Of a DNA stretch of 37,609 nucleotides, positions 5,266 to 37,609 are shown piece by piece. The notes beneath the pieces were generated by a model. The model did no database searches, had not been told where the DNA came from, and saw only the letters and a list, made by a program, of their open reading frames with translations. Source of the stretch: an uncultured Thermomicrobiales bacterium. GTDB taxonomy: Bacteria; Chloroflexota; Chloroflexia; Thermomicrobiales; UBA6265. A program made the translations under genes and the position numbers. Each line of letters starts with the position of its first letter. Position 1 is the first letter of the stretch. Where the stretch lies: the NCBI GenBank assembly GCA_902806405.1, contig CADCWL010000055.1, positions 1 to 37,609 on the forward strand, in the 5' to 3' direction.

Positions 5266-6359
5266 GGCGAGGCGCTCGTGGGCACGTCGGCGCCCAGCGC
5301 ACGGCCCGCCCCGGTCGCCAGCAGCGTCTCGGCCTCGGCGACGACCTCCGCCGCGGGGATGTCGAGGCAGGGGAGGCCGATCGGGCAGTCGAAGCGGTAG
5401 CAGGGGTGGCAGGGGGTCGGGCGGCGGAGGAGGCGGGACGACGTGACCCGCGGGCGCCACTGCGCCTCGAGGTCGGTGCCGGCGTAGAGGGCGAGGACGG
5501 GGGTGCCGACGGCGTCGGCGAGGTGCATCGGCAGGGTGTTACCGCAGACGACGAGCGCGGCCCGCGCGACCAGGGCCGCGTACTCGGGGAGCGTCGTGCC
5601 GCCGACGAGCGTACCGGCCCCCGGGGCGGCGGCGACCACCTCCGCCACGGTCGCCGTCTCCCGCTCGACGCCGGTGACGAGGACGGGCCAGCCTCGGTCG
5701 ATCAGGTCGCGGGCGGCGGTGCCGGCCCGCGCCGCCGGGTAGCGCCGAGCGCGGGCGCTGGCGCCGGGGTGGAGGAGGACAAAAGGGCGATCGGGCGGGA
5801 GGCCGGCGCGGCGGAGCAGATCGGGGACGTTTCGCCGGGCCTCCTCCGTGATGGCAACGGCGAGGCGGCGGTCGACGGCGGGGAAGCCGACGCTCTCGAC
5901 GAGGCGGAGGTTGCGCTCGACCTGGTGGAGGTCGTCGGGGGCGCCGCGCAGCTCCGTCGTCAACGTCGCGCCGCCGAACTCCTTCGACTCGCCGGCGCGG
6001 AGGGGGATGCCGGCGAGGTAGCAGACGTAGGCGGGAACGTGCGGCGTCTGGCTGAAGGAGGTGAAGATGAGGGCGGCGTCGAACCCCCGGACGGCGAGGA
6101 GGTCGATCAGCTCGCGCTCCCGCCCGGGGTCGAACGGGGGCGGGTTGAGCTGCTGCCAGAGCGGGCTCCAGACCAGGACGTCGTCGACCCAGGGCAGCAG
6201 GGCCGCCGCCGCGGCGCCGCCGGGGGTCGCGAGAAGGGTGACGCGCGCCGCGGGTGAGGCCTCCTTCACCGCTCGCAGCGCCGGGCCAAGCATGACGACG
6301 TCGCCGGCGTTGTCGAGGCGGACGGCGAGGAGGTTGCGGGCGGCGAGCCAGGGGGTCAT
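5262..6359 (-). CDS. Family 9 glycosyltransferase (ADP-heptosyltransferase-like) 2, with four-cysteine motif
   Basis: A 365-residue GT9 protein starting MTPWLAARNLLAVRLDNAGD, with the typical VRLDNAGDVVMLGPA loop at about residues 12-27. The C-terminal TNxTxPMH-like motif is CGNTLPMHLADA. Near the C-terminus it has C317-x2-C320-x4-C325-x5-C331, a possible metal-binding or disulfide cluster found in some members of this family. The last 30 residues are Ala/Gly-rich and probably disordered. ATG at 6359 overlaps the upstream stop by four bases, and its own stop overlaps the next start by four, so translation is coupled on both sides. It likely adds a heptose or a related sugar, working with the two sister genes. 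Confidence 0.9.
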   Translation of the reverse strand: MTPWLAARNLLAVRLDNAGDVVMLGPALRAVKEASPAARVTLLATPGGAAAAALLPWVDDVLVWSPLWQQLNPPPFDPGRERELIDLLAVRGFDAALIFTSFSQTPHVPAYVCYLAGIPLRAGESKEFGGATLTTELRGAPDDLHQVERNLRLVESVGFPAVDRRLAVAITEEARRNVPDLLRRAGLPPDRPFVLLHPGASARARRYPAARAGTAARDLIDRGWPVLVTGVERETATVAEVVAAAPGAGTLVGGTTLPEYAALVARAALVVCGNTLPMHLADAVGTPVLALYAGTDLEAQWRPRVTSSRLLRRPTPCHPCYRFDCPIGLPCLDIPAAEVVAEAETLLATGAGRALGADVPTSASP

Positions 6360-7570
6360 CGGGGCAGCCCGCGGGACGCGGCCCTGACCAGGGTCGCCGG
6401 GCGCGGGCCGTCGGTGGTGACGGACCGGGGCAGCGCCCCGCGCCCAGCCCCGTCAACAGCGCCGGTTTCCTGCAGCAATTCGGCCGCGGCGTCAACGACC
6501 TCGTCGGGTGCGACCAGCCGCAGGCACTCGTGGCCGTAGGGGCAGACACGGCTATAGCAGACGCGGCAGGGGACGTCGCGGTTGAGGAGGCGGTGGGGAA
6601 CGCGCCAGGGACCCCACCGCTCCGGGGGGTCGGTCAGGGCGAAGAGGGCGGCGACGGGGGTCTTGACGGCCGCCGCGACGTGCATCGGACCGGTGTTGTT
6701 GGTGACGACGAGGTCGGCGGCCTCGATCAGGGCACAGAAATCGGCGAACGACAACTCCCCGGCGCAGGGTCGGGTCGCGGCGCGGGCCGCCGGGGAGAGC
6801 GCCCCGTGCAGCGCGGCGACCAGATCCCGCTCGCCGGCGACGCCGGTGAGGACGACCCGAGCGCCGAGGCGCGCGACCAAGCCCTCGACGACGTGGGCGT
6901 ACCCCTGCCAGGGGTAGGTCCGGGCGGGCATGGTGCAGCCGGGGTGGAGGACCACGAGGGGTCCGCCGGGGTACCCGTCGCGGGTCTCGCCGCCCGCCAA
7001 CCAGGCCCGCGCTCGGTCCCGCGCGTCGCCGGGGACGCGCAGGACCAGATCGATCTCGTCGGTGGCAAGGCCGACGGCGCCGACCAGGTCGAGGCCGCGC
7101 TCGACCTCGTGCATCGGCCGCTCGGGGTGGCGGTGGCGGGTCGTCAGCAGGGAGCCCGGACCGTCGACGGAGGCGGCGAGACGGAGCGGGATATCGGCCA
7201 GGTAGCAGAGGTAGGCGGCCGGGAGCGGGCTCTGGCGGAAGGAGGTGAAGACGATCGCGCCGTCGAAGCGGCCGGCGCGGACCGCCTCGATCGCCCGGCG
7301 CTCGCGGTCGCTGTCGTGGGGTAGCTCCTGCCAGGGGTCGACCCACGGCGCCCGGTGGACGATGACGTCGTCGACGTCGGGGTTGAGGCGGGCGGCCTGC
7401 GCGCCGACGGGGCCGGCGAGGAGGGTGATCCGGGCGCGGGGCAAGGAGGCGCGGACGGCGTGGATCGCCGGGGTCGTCACCAGCACGTCGCCGAGGTTGT
7501 CGAGGCGGACGACGAGGACGCGACGGGCCGACCGCCACCGCTCGTCGATGCCGGTTGGGGAAACGCTCAC
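6356..7570 (-). CDS. Family 9 glycosyltransferase (ADP-heptosyltransferase-like) 3, with four-cysteine motif
   Basis: A 404-residue GT9 protein. RRVLVVRLDNLGDVLVTTPA near residues 16-36 is the family N-terminal signature, and VVTNNTGPMHVAAA the C-terminal one. It shares with its downstream neighbour the segment C335-x2-C338-x4-C343-x5-C349, followed by an extra tail of roughly 55 residues. The ATG at 7570 overlaps the end of hldE by four bases. It is clearly paralogous to the next gene, which suggests local duplication followed by divergence into sequential transferases. Reaction expected: transfer of heptose from the ADP-heptose made by the upstream enzymes; the acceptor is not known. Confidence 0.91.
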   Translation of the reverse strand: MSVSPTGIDERWRSARRVLVVRLDNLGDVLVTTPAIHAVRASLPRARITLLAGPVGAQAARLNPDVDDVIVHRAPWVDPWQELPHDSDRERRAIEAVRAGRFDGAIVFTSFRQSPLPAAYLCYLADIPLRLAASVDGPGSLLTTRHRHPERPMHEVERGLDLVGAVGLATDEIDLVLRVPGDARDRARAWLAGGETRDGYPGGPLVVLHPGCTMPARTYPWQGYAHVVEGLVARLGARVVLTGVAGERDLVAALHGALSPAARAATRPCAGELSFADFCALIEAADLVVTNNTGPMHVAAAVKTPVAALFALTDPPERWGPWRVPHRLLNRDVPCRVCYSRVCPYGHECLRLVAPDEVVDAAAELLQETGAVDGAGRGALPRSVTTDGPRPATLVRAASRGLPR

Positions 7571-18000: not shown

Positions 18001-18300
18001 CCGTGCCCCTCCGTCCGTACACACTTCACCGACCGCGATGCTCCATGATCGCATCCCGTCGCGGGTGCCGCGCGACGAAATCGCCGCTCCCCCACGACGG
18101 GCGCCCGCGGCCGTGCGACGGGCCGATCGGGAGGAGGCCGCACGGGTACGTCGATGTCCGCGCCAGGCTGGTTTGGGGAGCGTCATTCGGGATCGCCGAC
18201 GCCGCGCTGACGCGGGGTCGAGGATCCCGCGCTGAGCCGACAAAGCCGATCGGGGGCTGGGCACGGGGGCGAGCGGGACGTCGTCGAAACGGCCCGCTCA
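18001..18300. other. 300-base intergenic gap upstream of the FAH-family gene
   Basis: No gene is supported. It holds the promoter region of the FAH/PfkB pair on the minus strand and the downstream end of the 2-hydroxyacid dehydrogenase gene's upstream neighbourhood, together with repeat copy A. I see no consensus promoter boxes. Confidence 0.45.
18212..18268 (+). repeat. Two-hairpin intergenic repeat, copy A (diverged)
   Basis: GGGGTCGAGGATCCC, then GCTGAGCCGACAAAGCC, a short hairpin-forming stretch and GGGCTGGGCACGG. The order and sequence match copies at 23704 and 28611. It lies in the gap between the 2-hydroxyacid dehydrogenase stop and the FAH-family gene. It is the most diverged of the three copies and its second stem is partly broken. 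Confidence 0.6.
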
Positions 18301-19380
18301 TCAGTAGAGGCGCCGCTTGTCGAGCACGGGGGCCATGAGGTCGATCTCCCCGTCCAGGTAGTGGGCGAGGTTCCGAAGAAAGAGGTCGGTCAGCTTCGCG
18401 TTCTCCGTGTCGGCGGTGCTGGCCGAGTGGGGGCTGACCAGGACGTTCGGCAGGTCCCAGAGGGGAGAGTCGGGAGGCAGCGGCTCGGCGCGGAAGACGT
18501 CGAGCGCCGCGAAGCCGACGCGCCCCTCCCGCAGGGCGTCGATCAGCGCGTCCTCGTCGACCACGGCGCCGCGGGCGATGTTGACCAGGACGGCGCCCGG
18601 CTTGAGGGCGGCGAGCTCGGCGCGGTCGATCAGCCCGTCCGTCTCCGGAGTGTGGGGCGCGCAGAGAACGAGGCAGTCGGCGCCGGCCAGCAGCGCCGGC
18701 AGCTCGGCGCGGGCGAAGAGGCGGTCGACGCCGAGCGCGGCAGCGCGGGCCGGATCGTTGTCGCGCGCCGTTGCCCAGACGGTCATCCCGAACGCGCGGG
18801 CGACGAGGGCGACCTCGCGGCCGATCCGACCGGGGCCGACGATCGCCATCACCCGTCCGCGCAGCTCGCCGGCGTGGAAGCGCTGCCAGCGGTGGGCGCG
18901 CTGCTCGGCCTGGAGGTGTGCGAGGCGCTTGGCATGAAAGAGCAGCGCGGCGAAGACGAACTCGGCGAGGGGCTGGGCGTGGACGCCGCTGGCGGTCGTC
19001 ACGATCAGGTCGCTCTCCTGGAGGCCGAGTCGCTTGACGTACTGGCCGACGCCGGCCGAGGTCGTCTGCACCCAGCGCAGGTTCGGCGAGAGCTCCAAGG
19101 GGCCGGCCGTCTCGCCGACGGCGAAGTCCCAGAGGACCTCGGCCCGCCCCAGCTGGCGGCGCCACTCGGCCTGCTGCTCCGGGGTGCGGCGCCAAGCGGG
19201 GTCGCCGCCGTGGTCGGCGGCGTAGCGGGGCGGGGGCAGCAGGTCGGGACGGTAGACGAGCTCGACGCGGTCGGGGTGGGCCGCCGCGATGTGGCCAGCG
19301 TGCTCCGGCTCCAACGGCGAGGTGATCATGGCGACGAGCTTGCCGCTTCGCCGAATCGGGTCGTCCTTGCTCGCCGCCAC
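18301..19380 (-). CDS. D-2-hydroxyacid dehydrogenase
   Basis: A 359-residue NAD(P)-dependent reductase of 2-keto acids or oxidase of D-2-hydroxy acids. The Rossmann motif VGPGRIGREV has its glycines at 182-187. The catalytic residues lie in VNIARGAVVDEDAL (Arg), the DVFRAEPLP segment (Glu) and SPHSAS (H318). Family length is 310-350; this start gives a slightly longer N-terminus. The GTG at 19380 has GGGAGGG upstream; an ATG at 19329 would give 342 residues and is a real alternative. The gene is divergent from the peptide importer operon that starts at 19741. A role in hydroxypyruvate, glyoxylate or sugar-acid metabolism is likely but not shown. Confidence 0.88.
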   Translation of the reverse strand: MAASKDDPIRRSGKLVAMITSPLEPEHAGHIAAAHPDRVELVYRPDLLPPPRYAADHGGDPAWRRTPEQQAEWRRQLGRAEVLWDFAVGETAGPLELSPNLRWVQTTSAGVGQYVKRLGLQESDLIVTTASGVHAQPLAEFVFAALLFHAKRLAHLQAEQRAHRWQRFHAGELRGRVMAIVGPGRIGREVALVARAFGMTVWATARDNDPARAAALGVDRLFARAELPALLAGADCLVLCAPHTPETDGLIDRAELAALKPGAVLVNIARGAVVDEDALIDALREGRVGFAALDVFRAEPLPPDSPLWDLPNVLVSPHSASTADTENAKLTDLFLRNLAHYLDGEIDLMAPVLDKRRLY

Positions 19381-19740
19381 CGCTCGTGCCCTCCCCGATG
19401 ACCGTCCATCGTCCACGCCCCGAGACGGTCGCACGAGGGGGAGGCTTTATCAAGTCCGGGTCAAGGTGATGGGCATCGGTCGCCGCCCGCGCCGCGCGGC
19501 GCTGCCAAGGGCCACCATCCCGGTCTCCTCGCCCTCGCCCACGGGCACAGACCGATCCCGTTGACACGATCTGTTGCGCCCCTTACCCTGCCGGGCAGGA
19601 CACCCAGCACACGCAGAACCGGGGCGGAGCGCAGCTCGTCGTCCCGGCGGCCCCGATTGGGGGCGCCGGAGCGCGCGACGGGCCATCTGTCGGGCCGATC
19701 GGCGCCGCCGACCGACGGGAGTGGCGGAGGAGGAGACTCG
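19381..19740. other. 360-base divergent intergenic region
   Basis: It separates the minus-strand dehydrogenase from the plus-strand peptide importer and must contain promoters for both. A good plus-strand promoter-like sequence lies at 19561-19589 (listed separately). On the minus strand only an isolated TTGACC is seen at 19464-19459 with no -10 box at proper distance. No other structure is evident. Confidence 0.5.
19561..19589 (+). promoter_or_regulatory. Candidate sigma-70-type promoter of the first peptide importer
   Basis: A perfect -35 box TTGACA (19561-19566), a 17-base spacer and TACCCT (19584-19589), which matches TATAAT at three of six positions. It would give a leader of about 145 bases before the ATG at 19741. 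The second peptide importer has the same arrangement, which supports the call. Confidence 0.55.
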
Positions 19741-21483
19741 ATGGCAGCAGCAGGCGAGGGGGGCCGGGTGGTTCTCCCAAAGCGGACGGTTTCCCGCCGC
19801 GCGTTCGTGGCCGGCTCCGCCGGGGTCGCCGCCCTCGCGGCGACGAGGTTGGACGCGATGGCCGCGGCGGGTGGGGCGCGGCCGGGATCGGCGCGGCTCC
19901 TGCGGCCAGCTGCGCAGGCGGGCGGCACGCTGACGTACGGCCTGAGCGGAGACTTCGACGAGAAGCTCGACCCGCAGGGCACCAACTTCGACACGACGAT
20001 CCGCGTCACCCTCAACATCTGCGAGCCGCTGGTCTGGATGCCGGCGGCGACGGAGATCGTGCCGAATCTGGCCGACTCGTGGGAGGTCTCGCCCGACGGG
20101 CTGGTCTACACCTTCCGACTGCGCCAGGGCGTCACCTTCCACGACGGCACCCCCTTCAATGCCGCAGCGGTCCAGTTCACCTTCGACCGTGTCGTCGAGC
20201 TCGACAGGCTCACGGCGACCGCCGCGCCCGGCACGACCCCTGTCGCCGACCCGGCGACGGTGCTGACGCCGGGGCAGTCGTACAACCAGCTCGGACCGTA
20301 TGAGCGGTCCGAGATCGTCGACGACCACACGATTCGGGTCGTCTTGAGCCGCCCGTTCACGCCGTTCCTTTCGGGCCTCAACGGTTACCTCGGGATCGTC
20401 TCGCCGACGGCGGTGCGGACGATGGGCCTGGCCGAGTTCAACCGCGCCCCAGTCGGCACCGGACCCTACATGTTCGGGGAGTGGGTCGAGCAGGACCACG
20501 TCACCCTGCTCCGGAATCCGAACTACGTCGGTGGCTCGCCGGTGTTCACGACCCAGGGCCCGCCGGCGTTCGACGAGATCATCTACCGGATCATCCCCGA
20601 CGCGGCGGTGCGATCCGGGACGCTAATCTCCGGGGAGACGCAGTACATCGAGGAGATTGACCCCCTCCAACTCGAGGACGTCCGGGCCAACCCGGACCTG
20701 GAGGTGGTCGAGCGGCCACAGCCCGGCTCCGGCTGGATCCTGCTCTTCAACCTGGCGCGCGAGGACAAGCCCCAGACCGAGCCGGCGGTCCGCCAGGCGC
20801 TGTCGTTCGCCGTCGATAAGGAAGCGTTCAACCAGGCCGTCTTCGGCGGCACCAACGTGCCGGCGGCCAGTCCCCTGATGCGGCCGACCTTCGGCTACGA
20901 GCCGCGGACGGAGGGGCTCTACTCCTACGACCCGGAGCGGGCCGCGAGCATGCTCGACGCGGCAGGCTGGGTGCTCAACGGCGACATCCGGGAGAAGAAC
21001 GGCCAGCCGCTGGCCCTGGTGCAACCGATCATCGACCGGCCGCAGGACAACGCGATGACGACCTTCCTCCAGGGCTCCTTCCGGGAGATCGGGGTCGATC
21101 TCCAGGTCGAGCCGCTGGAGTTGGCGGCGGCGCGCGAGCGGCGCATCGCCGGCCTCTACGACGTGGGGATGCTCTGGTTCTCCTACGCCGATCCGGACAT
21201 CCTGCGGGCCATCTTCCACTCCGAGAACATCGGCGCCTACAACCGCGCCAACTACAGCAACCCCGAGATCGACCGGATGCTCGACGAGGCCGCGGCCAGC
21301 AGCGACCCGGAGGTCCGCGCCCAGCTCTACTCGCAGATCCAGCTGCGGGTGTTGGAAGAGGCGGTGACGATCCCGCTGGCCGACAGCGTGGTCTACAACG
21401 CCAAGCAGCGCCGCCTCCAGGGCGAGATCCTCGACTACCTCGCCTCCTACGTTTGGATGAACGACGCCCGGTTCGCGGAGTAG
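19741..21483 (+). CDS. Peptide-type ABC transporter substrate-binding protein with Tat-type leader (first importer)
   Basis: A 580-residue family-5 solute-binding protein (DppA/OppA type). The leader has a twin-arginine motif (S18-R19-R20-A-F) and a hydrophobic stretch, with no lipobox cysteine. The mature part opens GGTLTYGLSGDF near residue 61, followed by NICEPLVW, LADSWEVSPDGLVYTFRLRQ and VTFHDGTPFNAAAV, all typical of the family. C-terminal motifs include YSYDPERAASMLDAAGW and ADPDILRAIFHSENIG. The ATG at 19741 is fixed by GGAGGAGGAG upstream; the open frame before it is Arg/Pro-rich. It should bind a peptide or another di/oligomeric solute outside the cell for the two permeases downstream. 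Confidence 0.94.
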   Translation: MAAAGEGGRVVLPKRTVSRRAFVAGSAGVAALAATRLDAMAAAGGARPGSARLLRPAAQAGGTLTYGLSGDFDEKLDPQGTNFDTTIRVTLNICEPLVWMPAATEIVPNLADSWEVSPDGLVYTFRLRQGVTFHDGTPFNAAAVQFTFDRVVELDRLTATAAPGTTPVADPATVLTPGQSYNQLGPYERSEIVDDHTIRVVLSRPFTPFLSGLNGYLGIVSPTAVRTMGLAEFNRAPVGTGPYMFGEWVEQDHVTLLRNPNYVGGSPVFTTQGPPAFDEIIYRIIPDAAVRSGTLISGETQYIEEIDPLQLEDVRANPDLEVVERPQPGSGWILLFNLAREDKPQTEPAVRQALSFAVDKEAFNQAVFGGTNVPAASPLMRPTFGYEPRTEGLYSYDPERAASMLDAAGWVLNGDIREKNGQPLALVQPIIDRPQDNAMTTFLQGSFREIGVDLQVEPLELAAARERRIAGLYDVGMLWFSYADPDILRAIFHSENIGAYNRANYSNPEIDRMLDEAAASSDPEVRAQLYSQIQLRVLEEAVTIPLADSVVYNAKQRRLQGEILDYLASYVWMNDARFAE

Positions 21484-21560
21484 CGGGCGATCGATTCGCC
21501 GCCGGACGGCGGCCGCTGCTCCAATGCGCTCACGCTCGGGAACGTGCGCACCGTCTCTCC

Positions 21561-21633
21561 GTCATCCCGAGGAACGAGGGATCCCTCCCACGCGGCCTTC
21601 CCGGTGGAGAGATTCCTCGTTCCTCGGGATGAC
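21561..21633. repeat. 73-base palindromic element between binding protein and permease genes
   Basis: Two perfect 19-base arms, GTCATCCCGAGGAACGAGG (21561-21579) and its complement CCTCGTTCCTCGGGATGAC (21615-21633). Pairing continues inward with seven of the next nine positions matching, leaving a small loop. Neither arm encodes anything recognisable. It looks like a REP- or MITE-like non-autonomous repeat; as RNA it would fold into a long hairpin that could reduce readthrough from the binding-protein gene to the permeases, or protect the upstream mRNA. Only one copy is in this window. Confidence 0.75.
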
Positions 21634-21735
21634 AGCGTAGCGGACGTTGGACCGCCGAAGCAGGCCGGTCCTCGAAGACTCGGCGGCGATCGGCAACCCA
21701 AGACTCGCAACTCACGGCTCATCGGGTGGCCCCTT

Positions 21736-22659
21736 ATGACGACCTTCATCCTGCAGCGGCTGGCCCAGGCGATTCCGGTGCTGCTCGGGATCACGCTCTT
21801 CACCTTTCTGATGAGCCACTTGGTGCCGGGCGATCCGGTCCAGATCTTCGCCGGGGAGCGGGAACTCTCCCCGGAGCGGGCGGCGCAGGTCCGGCGGCAG
21901 TACGGGCTCGACCGGCCGCTCTGGGTCCAGTACCGCGACTACATGGCGGACCTGGCGCGGGGCGATCTCGGTCGCGGGCTGCACAGCCAGCGGCCGGTCT
22001 GGGAGACGATCCGGGAGGCGCTCTTGCCGACGATCCAGCTGACGCTGGCCGGCCTGGTCGTTGCCGTCCTCCTCGGCGTGACGCTTGGGGTCCTGGCGGC
22101 GATCTTCCGCAACAGCTGGATCGACACCGGGGCGATGGTCGTGGCGCTGATCGGCGTCTCAATGCCGATCTTCTACCTCGGGCTCCTGCTCCTCTTTGCC
22201 TTCTCGTTCAACCTCCACCTCTTCCCGGCGACCGGGACCGGCGGCTGGCGCTACCTCGTCCTGCCGGCGGTCGCGGTCGGCTTCGCCTCGTCCGCCTACA
22301 TTGCTCGCCTGGTCCGATCGTCGATGCTGGAGGTGCTGGGGCAGGATTACGTCGTCACGGCGCGGGCGAAGGGGGTCGTGGAGCGGCTCGTCGTCGTCCG
22401 GCACGCGTTGAAGAACGCGCTGATCCCGGTCGTCACATTCCTCGGCATTCAACTGGCCGGACTGCTGACCGGTGCCGTCGTCACCGAGACGGTCTTCTCC
22501 CGCCCCGGTCTGGGGCGGGTGGCGGTGACGGCGATCGGCAACCGAGATTTTCCGTTGATCCAGGGGACGGTCCTCGTCGCGGCGGTGATCTACGTGGTGG
22601 TCAATCTGATCGTCGACCTGTCGTATGCCGTGATCGACCCCAGGATTCGGTATGGGTGA
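21736..22659 (+). CDS. Peptide-type ABC transporter permease, DppB type (first importer)
   Basis: A 307-residue membrane protein starting MTTFILQRLAQAIPVLLGIT, the characteristic opening of DppB/OppB permeases. FLMSHLVPGDPVQIF and YGLDRPLWVQYRDYM form the family's periplasmic segment. The EAA-type ATPase-contact loop is near residues 206-225 (VTARAKGVVERLVVVRHALK), followed by ETVFSRPGLGR and VDLSYAVIDPRIRYG at the C-terminus. About five to six helices are predicted by eye. The ATG at 21736 matches the family start; the frame upstream spans the palindromic element and is not coding. Its stop overlaps the start of the next gene by eight bases. Confidence 0.94.
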   Translation: MTTFILQRLAQAIPVLLGITLFTFLMSHLVPGDPVQIFAGERELSPERAAQVRRQYGLDRPLWVQYRDYMADLARGDLGRGLHSQRPVWETIREALLPTIQLTLAGLVVAVLLGVTLGVLAAIFRNSWIDTGAMVVALIGVSMPIFYLGLLLLFAFSFNLHLFPATGTGGWRYLVLPAVAVGFASSAYIARLVRSSMLEVLGQDYVVTARAKGVVERLVVVRHALKNALIPVVTFLGIQLAGLLTGAVVTETVFSRPGLGRVAVTAIGNRDFPLIQGTVLVAAVIYVVVNLIVDLSYAVIDPRIRYG

Positions 22660-23587
22660 GGCGGGGAGCGCCTTGCGCGTCACTGACGCCGCACGAAGGC
22701 CGGCCGCCCGGGCGACGCCGCCGCTCGGCCGCCAGGTTCGCTCGCGGGGGTTGGCGGAGGACGCCCTCCGTCGCCTCTGGCGCAACCCCGGCGCGGCCGC
22801 CGGGGCGGTGACGCTCGCGGTGATGATACTGCTCGCGGTCTTCGCCCCGGTGGTCGCCCCGTACGACCCAATCGAGCAGGACTCGCAGGCGATCCGGGCC
22901 GCACCGAGCCTCGACCATCCCTTCGGAGCGGACGCCTTCGGGCGCGACATCTTCTCTCGCGTGTTGTACGGCGGGCGGAAGTCGCTGCCGGTCGGGCTGA
23001 TCGCGGTCGCGATCGCGGCGGTCGTCGGCGTTGCCCTCGGCCTGGTGGCCGGCTACTACGGGCGGTGGGTCGACGGGGTGGTGATGCGGGGCGTCGACCT
23101 GATGCTCGCCTTCCCGGGGATTCTGCTGGCGATGGCGCTGGTCGCGATCCTGGGGACGAGCTTGTTCAACTTGATGCTCGCCGTCGGCATCGCCTCGATC
23201 CCGGAGTACACGCGCGTGGTGCGGGGGACGACCCTGAGCGTGCGCGAGACCGAGTACGTGACGGCGGCGCGGGTGATCGGCGCCCGCGACCGCGCGATCG
23301 TGCTGCGGCACATCCTGCCGAACGTGCTGCCGCCGATTATCGTGCTGGTGACGCTCGGCATCGCCGGCGCGATCATCCTCGGCTCGACCCTCTCGTTCCT
23401 CGGGTTGGGGATCAAGCCGCCGGAGCCGGAGTGGGGCAACATGCTCTCCGACGGACGGTCGATGATGCGCCACTTCTGGTGGGTCTCGTTCTTTCCGGGG
23501 CTGGCGATCATGCTGACGGTCCTTGCTATCAACCTCCTCGGGGATGGGCTGCGCGACGCGCTCGACCCGCGCCTACGGAACCGGTGA
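22652..23587 (+). CDS. Peptide-type ABC transporter permease, DppC type (first importer)
   Basis: A 311-residue permease. About 45 cytoplasmic residues are followed by the first helix (AAGAVTLAVMILLAVFAPVV), then the DppC signature FGADAFGRDIFSRVLYGGRK and SLPVGLIAVAIAAVVG. The ATPase-contact loop is VTAARVIGARDRAIVLRHIL, and WGNMLSDGR with LNLLGDGLRDALDP-like sequence closes the protein. It overlaps the upstream permease gene by eight bases. No DppD or DppF ATPase gene follows; after 234 bases the next gene is a peptidase-like protein. The ATPases must therefore come from elsewhere in the genome if this importer works. Confidence 0.94.
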   Translation: MGEAGSALRVTDAARRPAARATPPLGRQVRSRGLAEDALRRLWRNPGAAAGAVTLAVMILLAVFAPVVAPYDPIEQDSQAIRAAPSLDHPFGADAFGRDIFSRVLYGGRKSLPVGLIAVAIAAVVGVALGLVAGYYGRWVDGVVMRGVDLMLAFPGILLAMALVAILGTSLFNLMLAVGIASIPEYTRVVRGTTLSVRETEYVTAARVIGARDRAIVLRHILPNVLPPIIVLVTLGIAGAIILGSTLSFLGLGIKPPEPEWGNMLSDGRSMMRHFWWVSFFPGLAIMLTVLAINLLGDGLRDALDPRLRNR

Positions 23588-23703
23588 AGCGGGGACGGCG
23601 GGTGGTGACCTCTGGCGCCGAGCGGGCACCACGCGGGGTCAACCACGCTTCTAGCCGACTGTCGGCCGCACCGCATCACCTCCAGCGCCGCCTTGGCGTC
23701 GCC

Positions 23704-23758
23704 CGGGGTTGAACCCCCGCGCTGAGCCTACGAAGCCCCTCGCGGGCTGAGCACGAAG
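23704..23758 (+). repeat. Two-hairpin intergenic repeat, copy B
   Basis: GGGGTTGAACCCC can form a small hairpin, then GCGCTGAGCCTACGA leads into AGCCCCTCGCGGGCT, which forms a second hairpin, ending TGAGCACG. The same order is found at 18212 and 28611. It follows the end of the first peptide importer operon by about 115 bases and could act as a structured 3' end. Confidence 0.65.
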
Positions 23759-23780
23759 GCCGCCTCCCTCGGCGCGCCCT

Positions 23781-23798
23781 ATGTCGGATGGCCGACAT
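23781..23798. promoter_or_regulatory. Dyad ATGTCGG-n4-CCGACAT just before the peptidase gene
   Basis: A perfect seven-base inverted repeat with a four-base spacer, ending six bases before the AAGGAGG ribosome binding site (23804-23810) of the DUF885-like gene. Its position suits an operator for a dimeric repressor or a hairpin that limits translation. No regulator gene is adjacent, so this is a candidate only. Confidence 0.45.
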
Positions 23799-23821
23799 CC
23801 ATTAAGGAGGGGACTCTGTCC

Positions 23822-25018
23822 ATGCTGAGCGACGTCACCCTCGACTACGCCGAGGAGGTGGCCGCCGCGCTGCTCGGGCTGGACTCCCTCTACGGGGCGG
23901 AGCGGGGCATGGACGCCGCACCCGGCGCCGACATCGACCGGCTCGTGGTCCTGAACCTCTCAACCGGGCTCGTGCCGGAGCCGTTCGCCGCCTACGCCGA
24001 CGCGCGGGCGCGGTTCGGGGAACTGGCGGCGAGGACGGCGGCGCTGCCGGAGCCGGACCGGCGGCTCTACTACCGGCAGGCGTGCGAGAGCGCGATCGCC
24101 TTCGCGACGTGGCGGGACGGCGGGCTGCCCTTCCCGGAGCAGATCGCCGGCTTCCTCCACGTGCCGGCCGCGCCGGCGAGCGAGGCCGAACTGGCGGCGC
24201 TGAGGGCGGCGATGGGCGGCGTACTGGCCGAACTCGGCGACACTGGCGACCTCGAAGCGCGGTTCACCGCCTGGGAAGCGCGGCAGCGGGTGCCGGCGGA
24301 CGAGGTGCAAGGGGTCCTCAACGGGCTGCTGGACGAGGCGTGGGATCGGACGGCGGAACGGTTCGGCATCCCCACGGACAAATCGGACGGGATGCGCGTC
24401 GAGACCGTTCGCGGCGTTCCCTACAACGCGATGTGCGACTTCGGCCGTCGCCTGATCCGCCTCAACGTCGACCCGACGCTGACCCGGCCGGGGCTGAAGC
24501 ACCTCGCCGTCCACGAGGGGTACCCCGGCCACTACCTGCAGTTCATCCGGCGTCAGGTCGGCTACGGGGCGGGGCGGGTGCCGGCCGACGCGCTCCTCTC
24601 GGTCGTCAACACCGCCAACTCCTCGACCTTTGAGGGGATCGCTGACGTCGGAATGGATGTCGTCGGCTGGGCGAAGGAGCCGGACGACCGCCTGGCGGCG
24701 CTCCTCGCCCGCTACCGCTCGGGGCTCGGCACCCGCGCCGCCTGGCGCCTCCACGCCGAGGGATGGGCGCCGGACCGGGTCCACGACGAACTGCGGCGCG
24801 ATGCGCTGACCGGTGGCGAGGGGTGGGTCGCCACCCGGATGCGCTTCGTCTCCAAGCCGGACCGGGCGGCCCTGATCTGGTCGTACTGGTGGGGCGAGCC
24901 AAGCGTCGGCGCGGTCTGGGCACGGGTGCGGGACGACCGGGCACGGTGGGCGGGTTACGTCTCCTACGTGTATGACCGGATGCACTCGACGCAGAGCGTG
25001 GCGATGTTTGGGCTTTGA
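23822..25018 (+). CDS. DUF885-like metallopeptidase, short form
   Basis: A 398-residue protein. The centre holds VHEGYPGHYLQ with H231, E232 and H237, the HE-x4-H metal-site pattern of the DUF885 family (usually HEAYPGHHLQ). A downstream glutamate, E271 in STFEGIADVGMD, could be the third ligand. The protein is much shorter than typical DUF885 members (about 550-600 residues), with the N-terminal region reduced. No signal peptide is seen, so it should be cytoplasmic. AAGGAGG fixes the ATG at 23822. Its position after a peptide-type importer suggests hydrolysis of the imported compound, but no substrate is known for this subgroup. Peptidase activity is inferred from the motif alone. Confidence 0.75.
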   Translation: MLSDVTLDYAEEVAAALLGLDSLYGAERGMDAAPGADIDRLVVLNLSTGLVPEPFAAYADARARFGELAARTAALPEPDRRLYYRQACESAIAFATWRDGGLPFPEQIAGFLHVPAAPASEAELAALRAAMGGVLAELGDTGDLEARFTAWEARQRVPADEVQGVLNGLLDEAWDRTAERFGIPTDKSDGMRVETVRGVPYNAMCDFGRRLIRLNVDPTLTRPGLKHLAVHEGYPGHYLQFIRRQVGYGAGRVPADALLSVVNTANSSTFEGIADVGMDVVGWAKEPDDRLAALLARYRSGLGTRAAWRLHAEGWAPDRVHDELRRDALTGGEGWVATRMRFVSKPDRAALIWSYWWGEPSVGAVWARVRDDRARWAGYVSYVYDRMHSTQSVAMFGL

Positions 25019-25370
25019 CACGGACGTCGGGTGGGCACCGAGGCATGGGGACCGTCCGCCAAGGGGCCGCGGACGCTACGGTCGTCGGCCGGATTTTGGA
25101 CGACCACCCTCACACGAACCGCCGCCGCGACGAGAGAGCGAAGGGGGGGAAGATCCCGAGCGCGCCGTCGGGACCTGGGCCGGCTGTCGGCGTGTTCGAG
25201 AGCGTGCTCGGGCATCGCACGCCGATGGTCCGAATCCCGTCCCCGTCCGTGGGTGGGGAAGCATGTACCCCCGTCCCCTCTCCTCGGGGAGGATGGCGTC
25301 CGGCCGAGCGCCGAGACCGGCTGATCCGCCTGTGCTGTCCGCGGCGGGTCGGGCGACCCGACCTGTCTTG
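25019..25370. other. 352-base gap between convergent genes
   Basis: No gene is supported. It lies between the 3' ends of two converging peptidase-like genes and should contain their terminators. A perfect seven-base stem with a two-base loop, CGGGTCG-gg-CGACCCG, is at 25345-25360, 11 bases beyond the stop of the minus-strand gene; on the plus strand it is followed by a mixed CCTGTCTTGCT stretch. It may serve as a bidirectional terminator, though the T tracts are poor. Confidence 0.45.
25345..25360. terminator. Possible bidirectional terminator hairpin
   Basis: CGGGTCG / CGACCCG stem of seven perfect pairs with a two-base loop, lying between convergent genes and close to the stop of the minus-strand DUF885 gene. 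There is no true T run, so the call rests on position and stem quality. Confidence 0.35.
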
Positions 25371-27116
25371 CTAGGCCATGGCCGTCCCAACCGGGGTCTC
25401 CCGAGCAAGCATCGACGCGGCGATGAGCGGGACAGGGATCGCGCCGTAGCTCAGGAAGCGGTCGTGGAAGGCGCGGAGGGAGAAGGCAGCACCGTCGCGG
25501 TCGGCGTTCGTGCGGCGGAGGTCGTGGATGGCGTCGGTGCCGATGAGATACATCATGGCGGCGCCGGGGAACATCGAGTTCTTGACCGCCTCAGCATGGG
25601 ACGCGGCCGGGGGCATACCGATCTCTCGCTCGTAGAAGGCGGCGGCTTGGTCGAGGGTAAGGGCGCCGGTGTGGAGGGCGACGTCGACGACGGCGCGGCC
25701 GGCCATGCGGACGCGGCTCTGCTGCTCCGCGAGCGATTGGAGCGGGGTGAGGAAGCCGATCTCGTCCATCAGGTCGGTGGCGTAGCAGGCCCAGCCTTCG
25801 ACCAGCGTGCCGGCGCAGAAGAGGGCGAGGCGGGAGGCGCTGTCGACCCCGGCGATCCGTCCGATCCGCGAGTCGGCGCGGAAGGCGTGCCAGTTCTGGA
25901 CATGGTGGCCAAGGCCACCGTGGTGGACGACGTGGTTCAGCGCGATCACCGAGTCGTTCGCGGCGCGGAGTCGCCGTTCCTGTTCGGCGGGCGGTATCCC
26001 CGGCTCGACCGGCGGGACGAGGTAGCGGTGGACCTCATGCCGCCCGAACGGCGGGGGGCAGCGGTAGGGAAGGTAGTAGAGGCCGGCCGCCGCCTCCCGA
26101 TCGGACGGCGGGATGGGGACGTAGGCGATCGGGTGGTCCGGCCACGAAAGAAGGTCGTGGTCGAGCGCGGCTTGGCGGGCCGCTTCCCAGACCTCCGCGT
26201 AGGCCCGGTAGTAACCCTCGACGGTCGGGTGGCGATCGGCCAACCCGGCAAGGAGTTCCTCCGGCGTCCGTGACGGGTCGATCTCCCGTGCTCGCTCCAC
26301 CAGGGTCGCCCGGTGGCGCTCCAGCGCCGCCTGGGCGTACGCCTCGACCCAGGCCGCGTCGTGCCCCGACGTCAGGCAGTGGCCGCGGGCGAGGTAGCGG
26401 TCGAACGCTTCGCGGCCGCAGGCGTAGGCGTCGGACGAACGCGGGAGCAGATCCTGCTCCAGCCGGGCGGCGTGCTCGGCGAAGGCGGCGCGGGCGATCT
26501 CGGCGGCGGCAAGGAAGCCGGGCGCGTCGATACCGCGCTCGGCGGCGAGGATGCGGAGGCCATCTCGAAAGTAGGTGACGCCGGAACGGGCCTCGCGGAT
26601 AGCCTGCTCCGTCCAGGCGACGGGCGCCTCCCGGAGGTTGGCGCGGGCTTGGGCGAGGAAGCCCGGCAGGGCGTTCATGCGGGCGATCGCGGCCTCGGCC
26701 CGCTCGGCGAGCGGCTCGGTGTCGCGGAGGAAGAGCCCGAGGACGGAGAAGACGGCTTCGCCGGTGTAGAGGGCGGGGTTGCCGCGGTGGAAGTGCGGCG
26801 CAGCGTCCTCCCAGAGCTGGATCTCGAGGAAACCGTCCGCCAGGAGGAGATCGTGGCGCCGTGCCTCGGGGAGACCGGCGGTCGGGATGGACGCGAGCCG
26901 GGCGCGCAGATCCCGCATTTCGGCGGCCGTGCGGGCGGAGCCCTCTGGAGAGAAGTCGGGCAGGGCGTGGTCGTGCTCGTGGACGCCGACGAAGGTGGCG
27001 TTGACGGGGCGGCAGCGATAGTAGTGGGCGAAGAAGTCGTCGAGCCAAGCGTCGCACGCCCGGCGGGCGGCCGGGTCCGGGTCTGGTGCGCGGTGGGGGA
27101 CGGCGGCGTCTGCCAT
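25371..27116 (-). CDS. DUF885 family protein with altered metal motif
   Basis: A 581-residue protein of normal DUF885 length. ACDAWLDDFFAHYYRCRPVNAT at the start, WTEQAIREARSGVTYFRDGL, and YATDLMDEIGFLTP after EGWACY (E440) are recognisable family landmarks, as is the C-terminal PGAAMMYLIGTDAIHDLR. At the place of the metal motif HE-x2-PGHH the sequence is HHGGLGHH (residues 398-405): the glutamate expected next to the first histidine is histidine 399. Catalysis may therefore be lost or changed. No signal peptide is present. The ATG at 27116 has GGAGAG upstream. It converges with the short DUF885-like gene; the two are not close paralogues. Confidence 0.85.
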   Translation of the reverse strand: MADAAVPHRAPDPDPAARRACDAWLDDFFAHYYRCRPVNATFVGVHEHDHALPDFSPEGSARTAAEMRDLRARLASIPTAGLPEARRHDLLLADGFLEIQLWEDAAPHFHRGNPALYTGEAVFSVLGLFLRDTEPLAERAEAAIARMNALPGFLAQARANLREAPVAWTEQAIREARSGVTYFRDGLRILAAERGIDAPGFLAAAEIARAAFAEHAARLEQDLLPRSSDAYACGREAFDRYLARGHCLTSGHDAAWVEAYAQAALERHRATLVERAREIDPSRTPEELLAGLADRHPTVEGYYRAYAEVWEAARQAALDHDLLSWPDHPIAYVPIPPSDREAAAGLYYLPYRCPPPFGRHEVHRYLVPPVEPGIPPAEQERRLRAANDSVIALNHVVHHGGLGHHVQNWHAFRADSRIGRIAGVDSASRLALFCAGTLVEGWACYATDLMDEIGFLTPLQSLAEQQSRVRMAGRAVVDVALHTGALTLDQAAAFYEREIGMPPAASHAEAVKNSMFPGAAMMYLIGTDAIHDLRRTNADRDGAAFSLRAFHDRFLSYGAIPVPLIAASMLARETPVGTAMA

Positions 27117-27305
27117 CTCGATCTCTCCGTCTTTCGGTGTCCGCCGGAACGATGGAAGCCACCGCCCGAGGCCCTGATCGCCTCCGTGCCTCGCAAGACC
27201 GGCCGACACGGTCCCGGCACGGGGCTGACGACGCCGCGCCGAACCCATCAGAGCCCCCACGGGGACTGGGGACGGAGACGCCGCGGGTGGTCTCGAAACG
27301 GGGTC

Positions 27306-28439
27306 TCAGCGCGGCAGCGGCAGCTCCGTCCAGCGGCGCTCGCGGAATGAGATCTCGACGGCGTTGATCACCTCCTGGACCCATGCTCCATCGTCGAAGT
27401 TGCCTTCGTTCTTGTCCGTCTCGGTGGTCAGCTCGTCCAGAAAGTCCTTGATCAGGTTGGCGTAGAAGAGGGTGCGCCAGCTCTCCCGCGCGCTGCCGCC
27501 GGCCGGGTAGAAGCGGGCGGGAACCTCCTGTTGCTTGAACTCGACGTCGTCCGGCCGGGCTGTCTTGATCGTCTCGGCGACGCCGAACTCCTCGACTAGG
27601 CGGACGATGATCGCGCCGGCCGAGCCGTAGAGCCGGACCTCGATGCCAGGGTAGTTGCCGACGGTGACGTAGCTGGTCTGGATCGAGCCGATGACGCCGT
27701 TGGCGAACTCGCCGATGAAGATGTCGCCATCGTCGATGTTCATCCGCATCGTCGTGCCGGTGGCGCGGACCATCCGCTCCGGCACGAAGTTGCGGAGGGT
27801 GCCGACGACGCTGGCGAGGTCGGCGCCGACCATCCAGCGGGCGATGTCGATCACCGGCGCGCCGTAACCTTCCAAAGAAGAGACCTGGATCTGGGATTGG
27901 TCGGCGTTGACGTCGACCTGCCGCAGCGGCGTCTTGGGGTCGATCCACTGCGAGTTCTGCTCGTAGGCGTTGTAGATGTACGGCTCGCCGCAGAAGCCCT
28001 GGTCGACCAACTCCCGCATATAGCGCATTGCCGGCGCGTAGCGGAAGGTGAAGCCGAGCTTGGTCTTGAGGCCGCGGCTTCGCGCCAGCTCGGCGGCGCG
28101 CGCGGTCTCGCGGAAGTCGAAGGCGACCGGCTTCTCGCAGAGGACGTGCTTGCCGGCCCCGAGCGCGGCGGTTGCCAGATCGAAGTGGGTCGCGCTTGGG
28201 GTGCAGACGTCGACCACGTCGACGTCCGCCCGCTCGATCACGGCGCGGTAGTCGGTGGCGACGGAGGGGATGCCGAAGTCGGCGGCCGCCTTCTTCGCCA
28301 GCGCCTCGTCGACGTCACAAACCGCGACCAGCTCGCAGCGCGGGTCCCGCGCCCAACCCGGCAGGTGCGCGAAGTTCGCCCAGGTGCCGGCCCCAAGGAC
28401 CGCCACCCGCACCGGGCGCCCGGCGATGGGACCCACCAT
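27306..28439 (-). CDS. Gfo/Idh/MocA family oxidoreductase
   Basis: A 377-residue NAD(P)-dependent oxidoreductase of sugars or cyclitols. The Rossmann domain begins VRVAVLGAGTWANFAHLPGW with the GxGxxx motif near residues 16-21. VDVCTPSATHFDLATAALGAGK leads to the catalytic segment CEKPVAF with E102-K103-P104. The C-terminal substrate domain carries LGFTFRYAPAMRYMREL and GAPVIDIARWMVG, where D and the HW-like position normally sit (here the usual His is Arg). The ATG at 28439 has GGGAGGA upstream. It stands 189 bases upstream of the DUF885 gene on the same strand and could be cotranscribed. Substrate unknown. Confidence 0.9.
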   Translation of the reverse strand: MVGPIAGRPVRVAVLGAGTWANFAHLPGWARDPRCELVAVCDVDEALAKKAAADFGIPSVATDYRAVIERADVDVVDVCTPSATHFDLATAALGAGKHVLCEKPVAFDFRETARAAELARSRGLKTKLGFTFRYAPAMRYMRELVDQGFCGEPYIYNAYEQNSQWIDPKTPLRQVDVNADQSQIQVSSLEGYGAPVIDIARWMVGADLASVVGTLRNFVPERMVRATGTTMRMNIDDGDIFIGEFANGVIGSIQTSYVTVGNYPGIEVRLYGSAGAIIVRLVEEFGVAETIKTARPDDVEFKQQEVPARFYPAGGSARESWRTLFYANLIKDFLDELTTETDKNEGNFDDGAWVQEVINAVEISFRERRWTELPLPR

Positions 28440-28523
28440 GCCCGTCGTTCCTCCCCGACGGGGCCGGTTCGCGCCGGCCCACGCCTCTCAATCCCCGATT
28501 CCGTCGCCGCCTTGTGGAGGGGC

Positions 28524-28552
28524 ATCGTCCGGCACGCGGGGGGCCGTGTCAA
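28524..28552 (-). promoter_or_regulatory. Candidate promoter of the Gfo/Idh/MocA gene
   Basis: On the minus strand a perfect TTGACA (28552-28547), 17 bases, then GACGAT (28529-28524), a three of six match to the -10 consensus. It would give a leader of about 78 bases. The -35 match is good, the -10 poor. Confidence 0.35.
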
Positions 28553-28610
28553 CCGGAACCTCGGGGCGTTCCGAGCGCCGGGTCCAAGCCCTCCTGACCC
28601 CACGCCGGCG

Positions 28611-28669
28611 AGGGGCTGAAGACCCCTCGCTGAACCGACGAAGCCCCTCCCGGGGCTGAGCACGGGTCG
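28611..28669 (+). repeat. Two-hairpin intergenic repeat, copy C
   Basis: AGGGGCTGAAGACCCCT forms a first hairpin, then CGCTGAACCGACGA leads into AGCCCCTCCCGGGGCT, a second hairpin, ending GAGCACGGG. It aligns base for base over most of its length with copy B at 23704. Here it lies between divergent promoters rather than after a gene, so it is not simply a terminator. Confidence 0.65.
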
Positions 28670-37188: not shown

Positions 37189-37609
37189 GCAGCCGCGACA
37201 AACGCAGGCACCCCCCCGCCGGTGGCGGGGGGGTGCTCGTGTTTGCTTGTTCTGCAGCTTTAGGAGAGGAGGGTTCCGGGTCCGTGCCGGGGGGGCGCGG
37301 GCACGATGCGCCGCCGCTACCCTCCGCGACACGCGCGAGGATCGCGCGACCGGCCGGCGGCGAACGGCCGCCGCCTTAATCGCGCACGCAATGGGGGGCC
37401 GGGCCTCCCCGCCCCCCGCCCGCGTGCCGCACACCGAGACGCATACCCGCGACCGCCGCCGGGGCCCGCACGCCGCATTTGCGGAGTGCCCGCCCTCGAC
37501 CATTAGGACGGCTCGGCTCCGGTCGGTCGCCCGCCTTCCACCCGCCGCCTATCGACCCGGTCGTCTGCCGGGGGTCTTACCTGTCGAAACAGTGGGGAAG
37601 CTCGTCTTG
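37189..37609. other. 421-base tail without a supportable gene
   Basis: Apart from the terminator hairpin at 37208-37252 I see no gene. Frames on both strands are low-complexity Arg/Pro/Ala/Gly and lack family motifs. The last 40 bases are slightly less GC-rich and may belong to the promoter region of a gene beyond the right edge. Confidence 0.45.
37208..37252 (+). terminator. Strong rho-independent terminator
   Basis: A perfect 13-base stem GCACCCCCCCGCC / GGCGGGGGGGTGC (37208-37220 and 37224-37236) with a GGT loop, followed by a T-rich stretch TCGTGTTTGCTTGTTCT. It fits the end of a plus-strand transcript that once included the endonuclease III gene. Confidence 0.8.

Follow-up and report, generated by a model that had tools for sequence, protein, structure and literature searches.

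Three copies of a two-hairpin element lie in the window, by which we mean the whole stretch of 37,609 nucleotides analysed here, from an uncultured Thermomicrobiales bacterium. All three are intergenic, and each shows the order hairpin 1, linker GCTGAnCCnACnAAGCC, hairpin 2 and then GAGCACG or GGGCACG, just as a sequence-only reading of this DNA had described. The exact pattern GCTGANCCNACNAAGCC occurs in the window only at 18231, 23721 and 28629, always on the + strand. Copy 1 (18210-18267, +; covariance model match 58.6 bits, E 8.6e-8) consists of hairpin 1 with arms at 18211-18216 and 18226-18231, the core GCTGAGCCGACAAAGCC at 18231-18247, and hairpin 2 with arms at 18244-18247 and 18255-18258. 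Both of its flanking genes are on the − strand, so copy 1 is antisense to both. Copy 2 (23700-23757, +; 66.3 bits, E 2.7e-9) occupies the spacer between an OppC-type permease gene on the left, which ends at 23587, and a DUF885-like gene on the right, which starts at 23822; its hairpin 1 arms are at 23704-23708 and 23715-23719, its core at 23721-23737, and its hairpin 2 arms at 23734-23738 and 23744-23748. Copy 3 (28608-28666, +; 75.1 bits, E 4.9e-11), the best preserved of the three, lies between divergent genes for a MocA-type oxidoreductase and an SDR protein. Its hairpin 1 arms at 28611-28615 and 28623-28627 can be extended outwards, and they are followed by the core at 28629-28645 and hairpin 2 arms at 28642-28647 and 28652-28657. 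The genes neighbouring the three copies are mutually unrelated.

Read on the − strand, copy 3 carries the tetranucleotide TCAG (CTGA on the + strand) at 28630-28633, 5' of hairpin 1, where it may be the equivalent of a GTAG guide, and again at 28656-28659, 5' of hairpin 2, with the same putative role. Given this second TCAG foot, the unit is two tagged hairpins arranged head-to-tail. When folded as DNA and compared with shuffled sequences, copy 3 gives a z-score of −3.7 and copies 1 and 2 about −0.7; as RNA, the scores are −1.3, −2.5 and −3.5 for copies 1, 2 and 3, respectively. Copy 1, with its DNA z-score of only −0.7, is decayed. By themselves, the three copies constitute modest evidence, and no proof, of structure.

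Two further features of the window were noted. The contig stops partway through a bacterial 23S rRNA gene, within the gene's 3' end (37484-37609, − strand). In addition, a Thermomicrobiales contig, L208, has a 2-hydroxyacid dehydrogenase gene and a DUF885-like gene side by side, whereas an oligopeptide ABC transporter cluster lies between them in the window (18292-25018). Synteny between this contig and the window is rearranged at the element copies. For one protein, the nearest named match, at 72% identity, comes from an uncultured Thermomicrobiales bacterium, which points to a Thermomicrobiales-like member of Chloroflexota as the probable source.

A divergent family of hairpin pairs

A search of the whole source genome for the core pattern, allowing up to two mismatches, returned 32 matches versus 19 for a reversed-pattern control, and inspection by eye left about 20 true, divergent copies. 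We used 18 of these to build a covariance model, which found 37 copies at E<0.01 on both strands of the 4.6 Mb source assembly, 19 of which had not been used in the model (best new copy, 62.5 bits). Similarity among the source genome's copies, as judged by blast, is mostly confined to the limits of the model, and the unit is thus about 58-60 bases long. Six copies (L044, L045, L048, L052, L053 and L059) belong to a longer variant in which similarity extends up to about 160 bases, some of them with outer imperfect inverted repeats; in L052 these are TCGGGTGATCGCCG on the left and GCGATTACCCGGATTCCGGA on the right. Weaker inverted (+/−) pairs of the element are found on contigs C205 and C256 of the source genome.

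Are the hairpins maintained as structures? The sequence-only reading had taken compensating changes in the arms to mean that structure is selected. On the three window copies the case is weak, since copy 3 alone folds well as DNA; across relatives it is strong. Among 106 copies of relatives, the two helices contain 99 double-changed cells versus 34 in shuffles, double changes occur in nine of the ten pairs, and 85% of cells are paired versus at most 60% in slid controls. Because these sequences were aligned by fitting them to the model, the alignment is biased towards the structure; compensatory changes, however, such as AGTCCC/GGGACT in place of AGCCTC/GAGGCT, do not arise from the fitting. 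The hairpin arms thus covary strongly among relatives. Within the source genome the same count is marginal (8 double-changed cells versus 3.4 in shuffles), with slid controls scoring nearly as high; one contributing factor is that some copies have hairpin 1 out of register by one base. Hairpin 2 forms a mean of 4.6 of six pairs there, compared with 3.7 in controls, and the hairpins of the source genome's copies are often broken.

On the − strand, the usual tetranucleotide ahead of each hairpin is TCAG. This foot is present at hairpin 1 in 20 of 30 copies from the source genome and 60 of 106 from relatives, and at hairpin 2 in 12 of 30 and 55 of 106, respectively. Variants include TGAG and CCAG; GTAG appears in only a few of the relatives' 106 copies. 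The TCAG foot sits where REPs carry their GTAG guide (PMC8266576), and by this analogy TCAG may act as a guide.

Y1 transposase genes beside the element

The element is present in 15 of the 41 sampled genomes, including the source, at E<=0.1; at this threshold the other 26 have no copy. When the same genomes were searched with the Y1_Tnp profile (PF01797), many of the best-scoring genes proved to lie directly beside element copies. For example, in G012 a Y1 gene (C35:6097-6447) is located between copies at 5954-6014 (+) and 6595-6655 (−). By the covariance model, copies lie on both sides of the Y1 gene at seven loci (L089, L091, L093, L094, L095, L108 and L111; L095 is the weakest) in six genomes from several genera: G012, with two such genes, G002, G038, G010, G015 and G018. 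In all seven, the copy upstream points the same way as the gene and the one downstream is inverted. A model-free test, in which the 350 bases upstream were aligned to the reverse complement of the 350 bases downstream, gave inverted flanking repeats above all shuffles for 15 of the 16 IS200-like Y1 genes of the order. The exception, L117 (G005:C28:222066-225416), is a subclass-1.2-like Y1 gene with long direct repeats on both sides (direct score 133) and no inverted flanks. A class-2 Y1 gene, L098, likewise gave no inverted flanking repeats in this test. Phylum-wide, inverted flanks that exceed all shuffles, some of other makes, accompany 13 of the 28 genes that could be tested, and many of the flanks listed have a hairpin-CGAAG-hairpin layout; one family of these genes, f16, is mostly without inverted flanks. 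The association across the phylum is common, not universal.

What kind of transposase is this? The order-level proteins are about 140-150 residues long, are encoded at low copy number, and contain the motifs DH[VI]H, WQ and Y[IV]xNQxx[HR]H, the penultimate H often being R. They score above the NCBIfam cut-off for IS200 and below that for REP_Tyr_transpos, and they match ISHp608 TnpA and related TnpA chains in the PDB at E 1.4e-18 or better. Judged by motifs, they carry the signature of TnpA_Y1 subclass 1.2, which was published as DH[IV]H, WQ and Y---Q--HH, mainly in Cyanobacteria and Bacteroidetes, and without REPs (PMC6006769). In the source genome, whose assembly is 91% complete, no transposase was found with Pfam PF01797, one relative's protein or a 10-protein alignment.

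In the source genome the family looks like an inactive relic: a transposase was not found, the copies are divergent, with stems often broken, and no pair among 30 copies is more than 85% identical. In G038, where a transposase is present, the median identity to the nearest copy is 93%. G017, which has 24 copies but no Y1 gene, resembles the source genome. Adjacent +/− pairs of copies, or inverted doublets, occur in G008, G012, G017 and others. Copies flanking the G038 transposase gene match that genome's own dispersed copies best (one at 0.95 versus at most 0.77 elsewhere), the match between flanking and dispersed copies in G012 is weak, and the flanking copy in G008 resembles G012 copies, not its own dispersed ones. 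One syntenic spacer measures 60 bp without the element in G024 and 262 bp with a copy in G012, a member of the same genus; the flanks are too diverged to place the junction, and the difference is consistent with either insertion or deletion. Two further loci had lost synteny, and the search for empty sites yielded no clean junction at base level. We therefore infer mobility from dispersal, doublets and the REPtron layout.

Could the copies instead be what is left of the ends or interior of a classical IS200/IS605 insertion sequence, and not a REP-like repeat in their own right? In favour of this idea, the associated protein belongs with IS200 in type, and hairpins bound the gene that encodes it. 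However, dispersed copies of about 58 bases number in the dozens, whereas each genome has only a few Y1 genes, most of them different from one another, and the similarity among copies mostly stops at the element's edges; we regard an origin as insertion sequence debris as highly improbable. One genome, G164, with 13 matches at 1e-15 or better, has many IS200-like genes of equal score, as for a true insertion sequence, in contrast to the low-copy REPtron-like genes.

Placement of the copies and the proposed mechanism

Genes were called with a simple codon-usage caller trained on window genes confirmed by Pfam. As the sequence-only reading had claimed for the window, copies lie between genes: 29 of 30 are outside predicted genes and the remaining one overlaps the end of a gene, against a coding fraction of 76% at the copy loci and 83% in the window. 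Of the copies between genes on the same strand, 10 are sense and 11 antisense; four others are in divergent spacers, three in convergent spacers and one at a contig edge. Because orientation is unbiased genome-wide, the common orientation of the three window copies, correctly observed in that reading, is due to chance and does not hold as a pattern; copies occur on both strands, and copy 1 runs antisense to its neighbours. The near-equal sense and antisense counts also make a cis-acting RNA unlikely. Placement thus argues against a cis-regulatory or small-RNA module, and a scan of Rfam, at the gathering score and at E<=10, gave no credible family match. With random orientation and no Rfam match, neither the mRNA-stability element nor the small-RNA-like module that the sequence-only reading had entertained finds support. 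Where copies are transcribed, they may have a secondary RNA effect.

Hairpins maintained by the host to end or stabilise transcripts would fit the GC-rich, intergenic character of the element, and such action is known as a secondary role of REPs (PMC3733652). Yet the element has no T-run and no orientation preference, its hairpins are often broken in the source genome, and the bracketing of transposase genes would be left unexplained; we consider this explanation very improbable. A cis-regulatory or riboswitch-like leader controlling the downstream gene, suggested by the two ordered hairpins with their conserved linker and by copies 2 and 3 lying 65 and 119 bases before a + gene, is largely at odds with the orientation test (in which copy 1 and roughly half of those in same-strand spacers came out antisense), with copies between convergent genes, with the unrelated window neighbours and with an Rfam trace limited, even at E 10, to a far sub-threshold malK-III, and has next to no likelihood.

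We propose, with high confidence, that the repeat, about 58 bases long, is a non-autonomous mobile DNA element of the REP/BIME type and is mobilised by a subclass-1.2 Y1 transposase. On the − strand, the element reads as two head-to-tail hairpins, typically with TCAG at each 5' foot, joined by the conserved linker. A small HuH/Y1 transposase (IS200-like, subclass 1.2) would recognise the folded single strand, cut it beside the hairpins and move copies into new, mostly intergenic sites. The element is thus most likely parasite-like, spread by an IS200-like transposase, rather than a gene-control RNA. A non-autonomous mobile element was among the possibilities raised by the sequence-only reading, and it is the one favoured by the dispersed intergenic copies, the covarying arms and the inverted copies bracketing the transposase gene in relatives. 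Against it we count the failure to find a transposase in the 91% complete source assembly or a precise empty site, the weak or absent flank matching in G012 and G008, and the rarity of GTAG. More tentatively, and on balance, we favour the broader hypothesis that IS200-like HuH/Y1 proteins of subclass 1.2 constitute a REPtron system in their own right across Chloroflexota; its repeat would consist of two hairpins with TCAG feet, and the arms would diverge together with each lineage of the transposase.

Comparison with known systems

In the broad sense, the element has the properties of a REP: it is short, palindromic, extragenic and present in many copies, with inverted doublets; a Y1 gene flanked by the repeat, as in a REPtron, is found in relatives, not in the source genome. 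It departs from classical GTAG REPs in two respects: TCAG dominates in place of a GTAG or GTGG foot, and the transposase has no RAYT-type, NP-ending Y motif. The family is REP-like and in general of a known kind, but its particular form, with two tagged hairpins, a TCAG foot and a subclass-1.2, IS200-like enzyme, is undescribed in the papers searched, which cover the literature in part; within that same partial coverage, nothing beyond PMC3733652 and PMC6006769 bears on Chloroflexota REPs linked to IS200-like proteins. This would account for an intergenic repeat that is conspicuous in Thermomicrobiales-like genomes and might be mistaken for a riboswitch or small RNA.

One close parallel is with the REP/BIME/REPIN repeats and class-2 RAYT (TnpA_REP) proteins of known REPtrons. 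There too the repeats are short, palindromic and intergenic, number in the tens and form inverted doublets, a low-copy Y1 gene has inverted flanking copies, and a tetranucleotide stands at the hairpin foot. Here, however, two hairpins in head-to-tail order make up the unit, with TCAG instead of GTAG, and the transposase, below the REP_Tyr_transpos cut-off, has an IS200-like Y...Q motif. The GTAG-23 REPs of Thermomicrobium roseum (PMC3733652) belong to the same bacterial group and are largely clustered; compared by description only, they differ in being defined by a GTAG tag. Like the ends of IS200/IS605 elements (subclass 1.1), which are hairpins recognised by an HuH/Y1 TnpA with a guide tetranucleotide on their 5' side, the element has a tetranucleotide 5' of its hairpins, but it does not travel together with the transposase as one unit, and solo copies dominate. 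Finally, the transposases resemble TnpA_Y1 subclass 1.2 in motifs, size and low copy number, and they differ from its published members in belonging to Chloroflexota and in being bracketed by REP-like elements. For a subclass of transposases listed without REPs in the published survey (PMC6006769), the element provides a likely substrate and a role, and it suggests that REP-like systems exist beyond the class-2 RAYT lineage.
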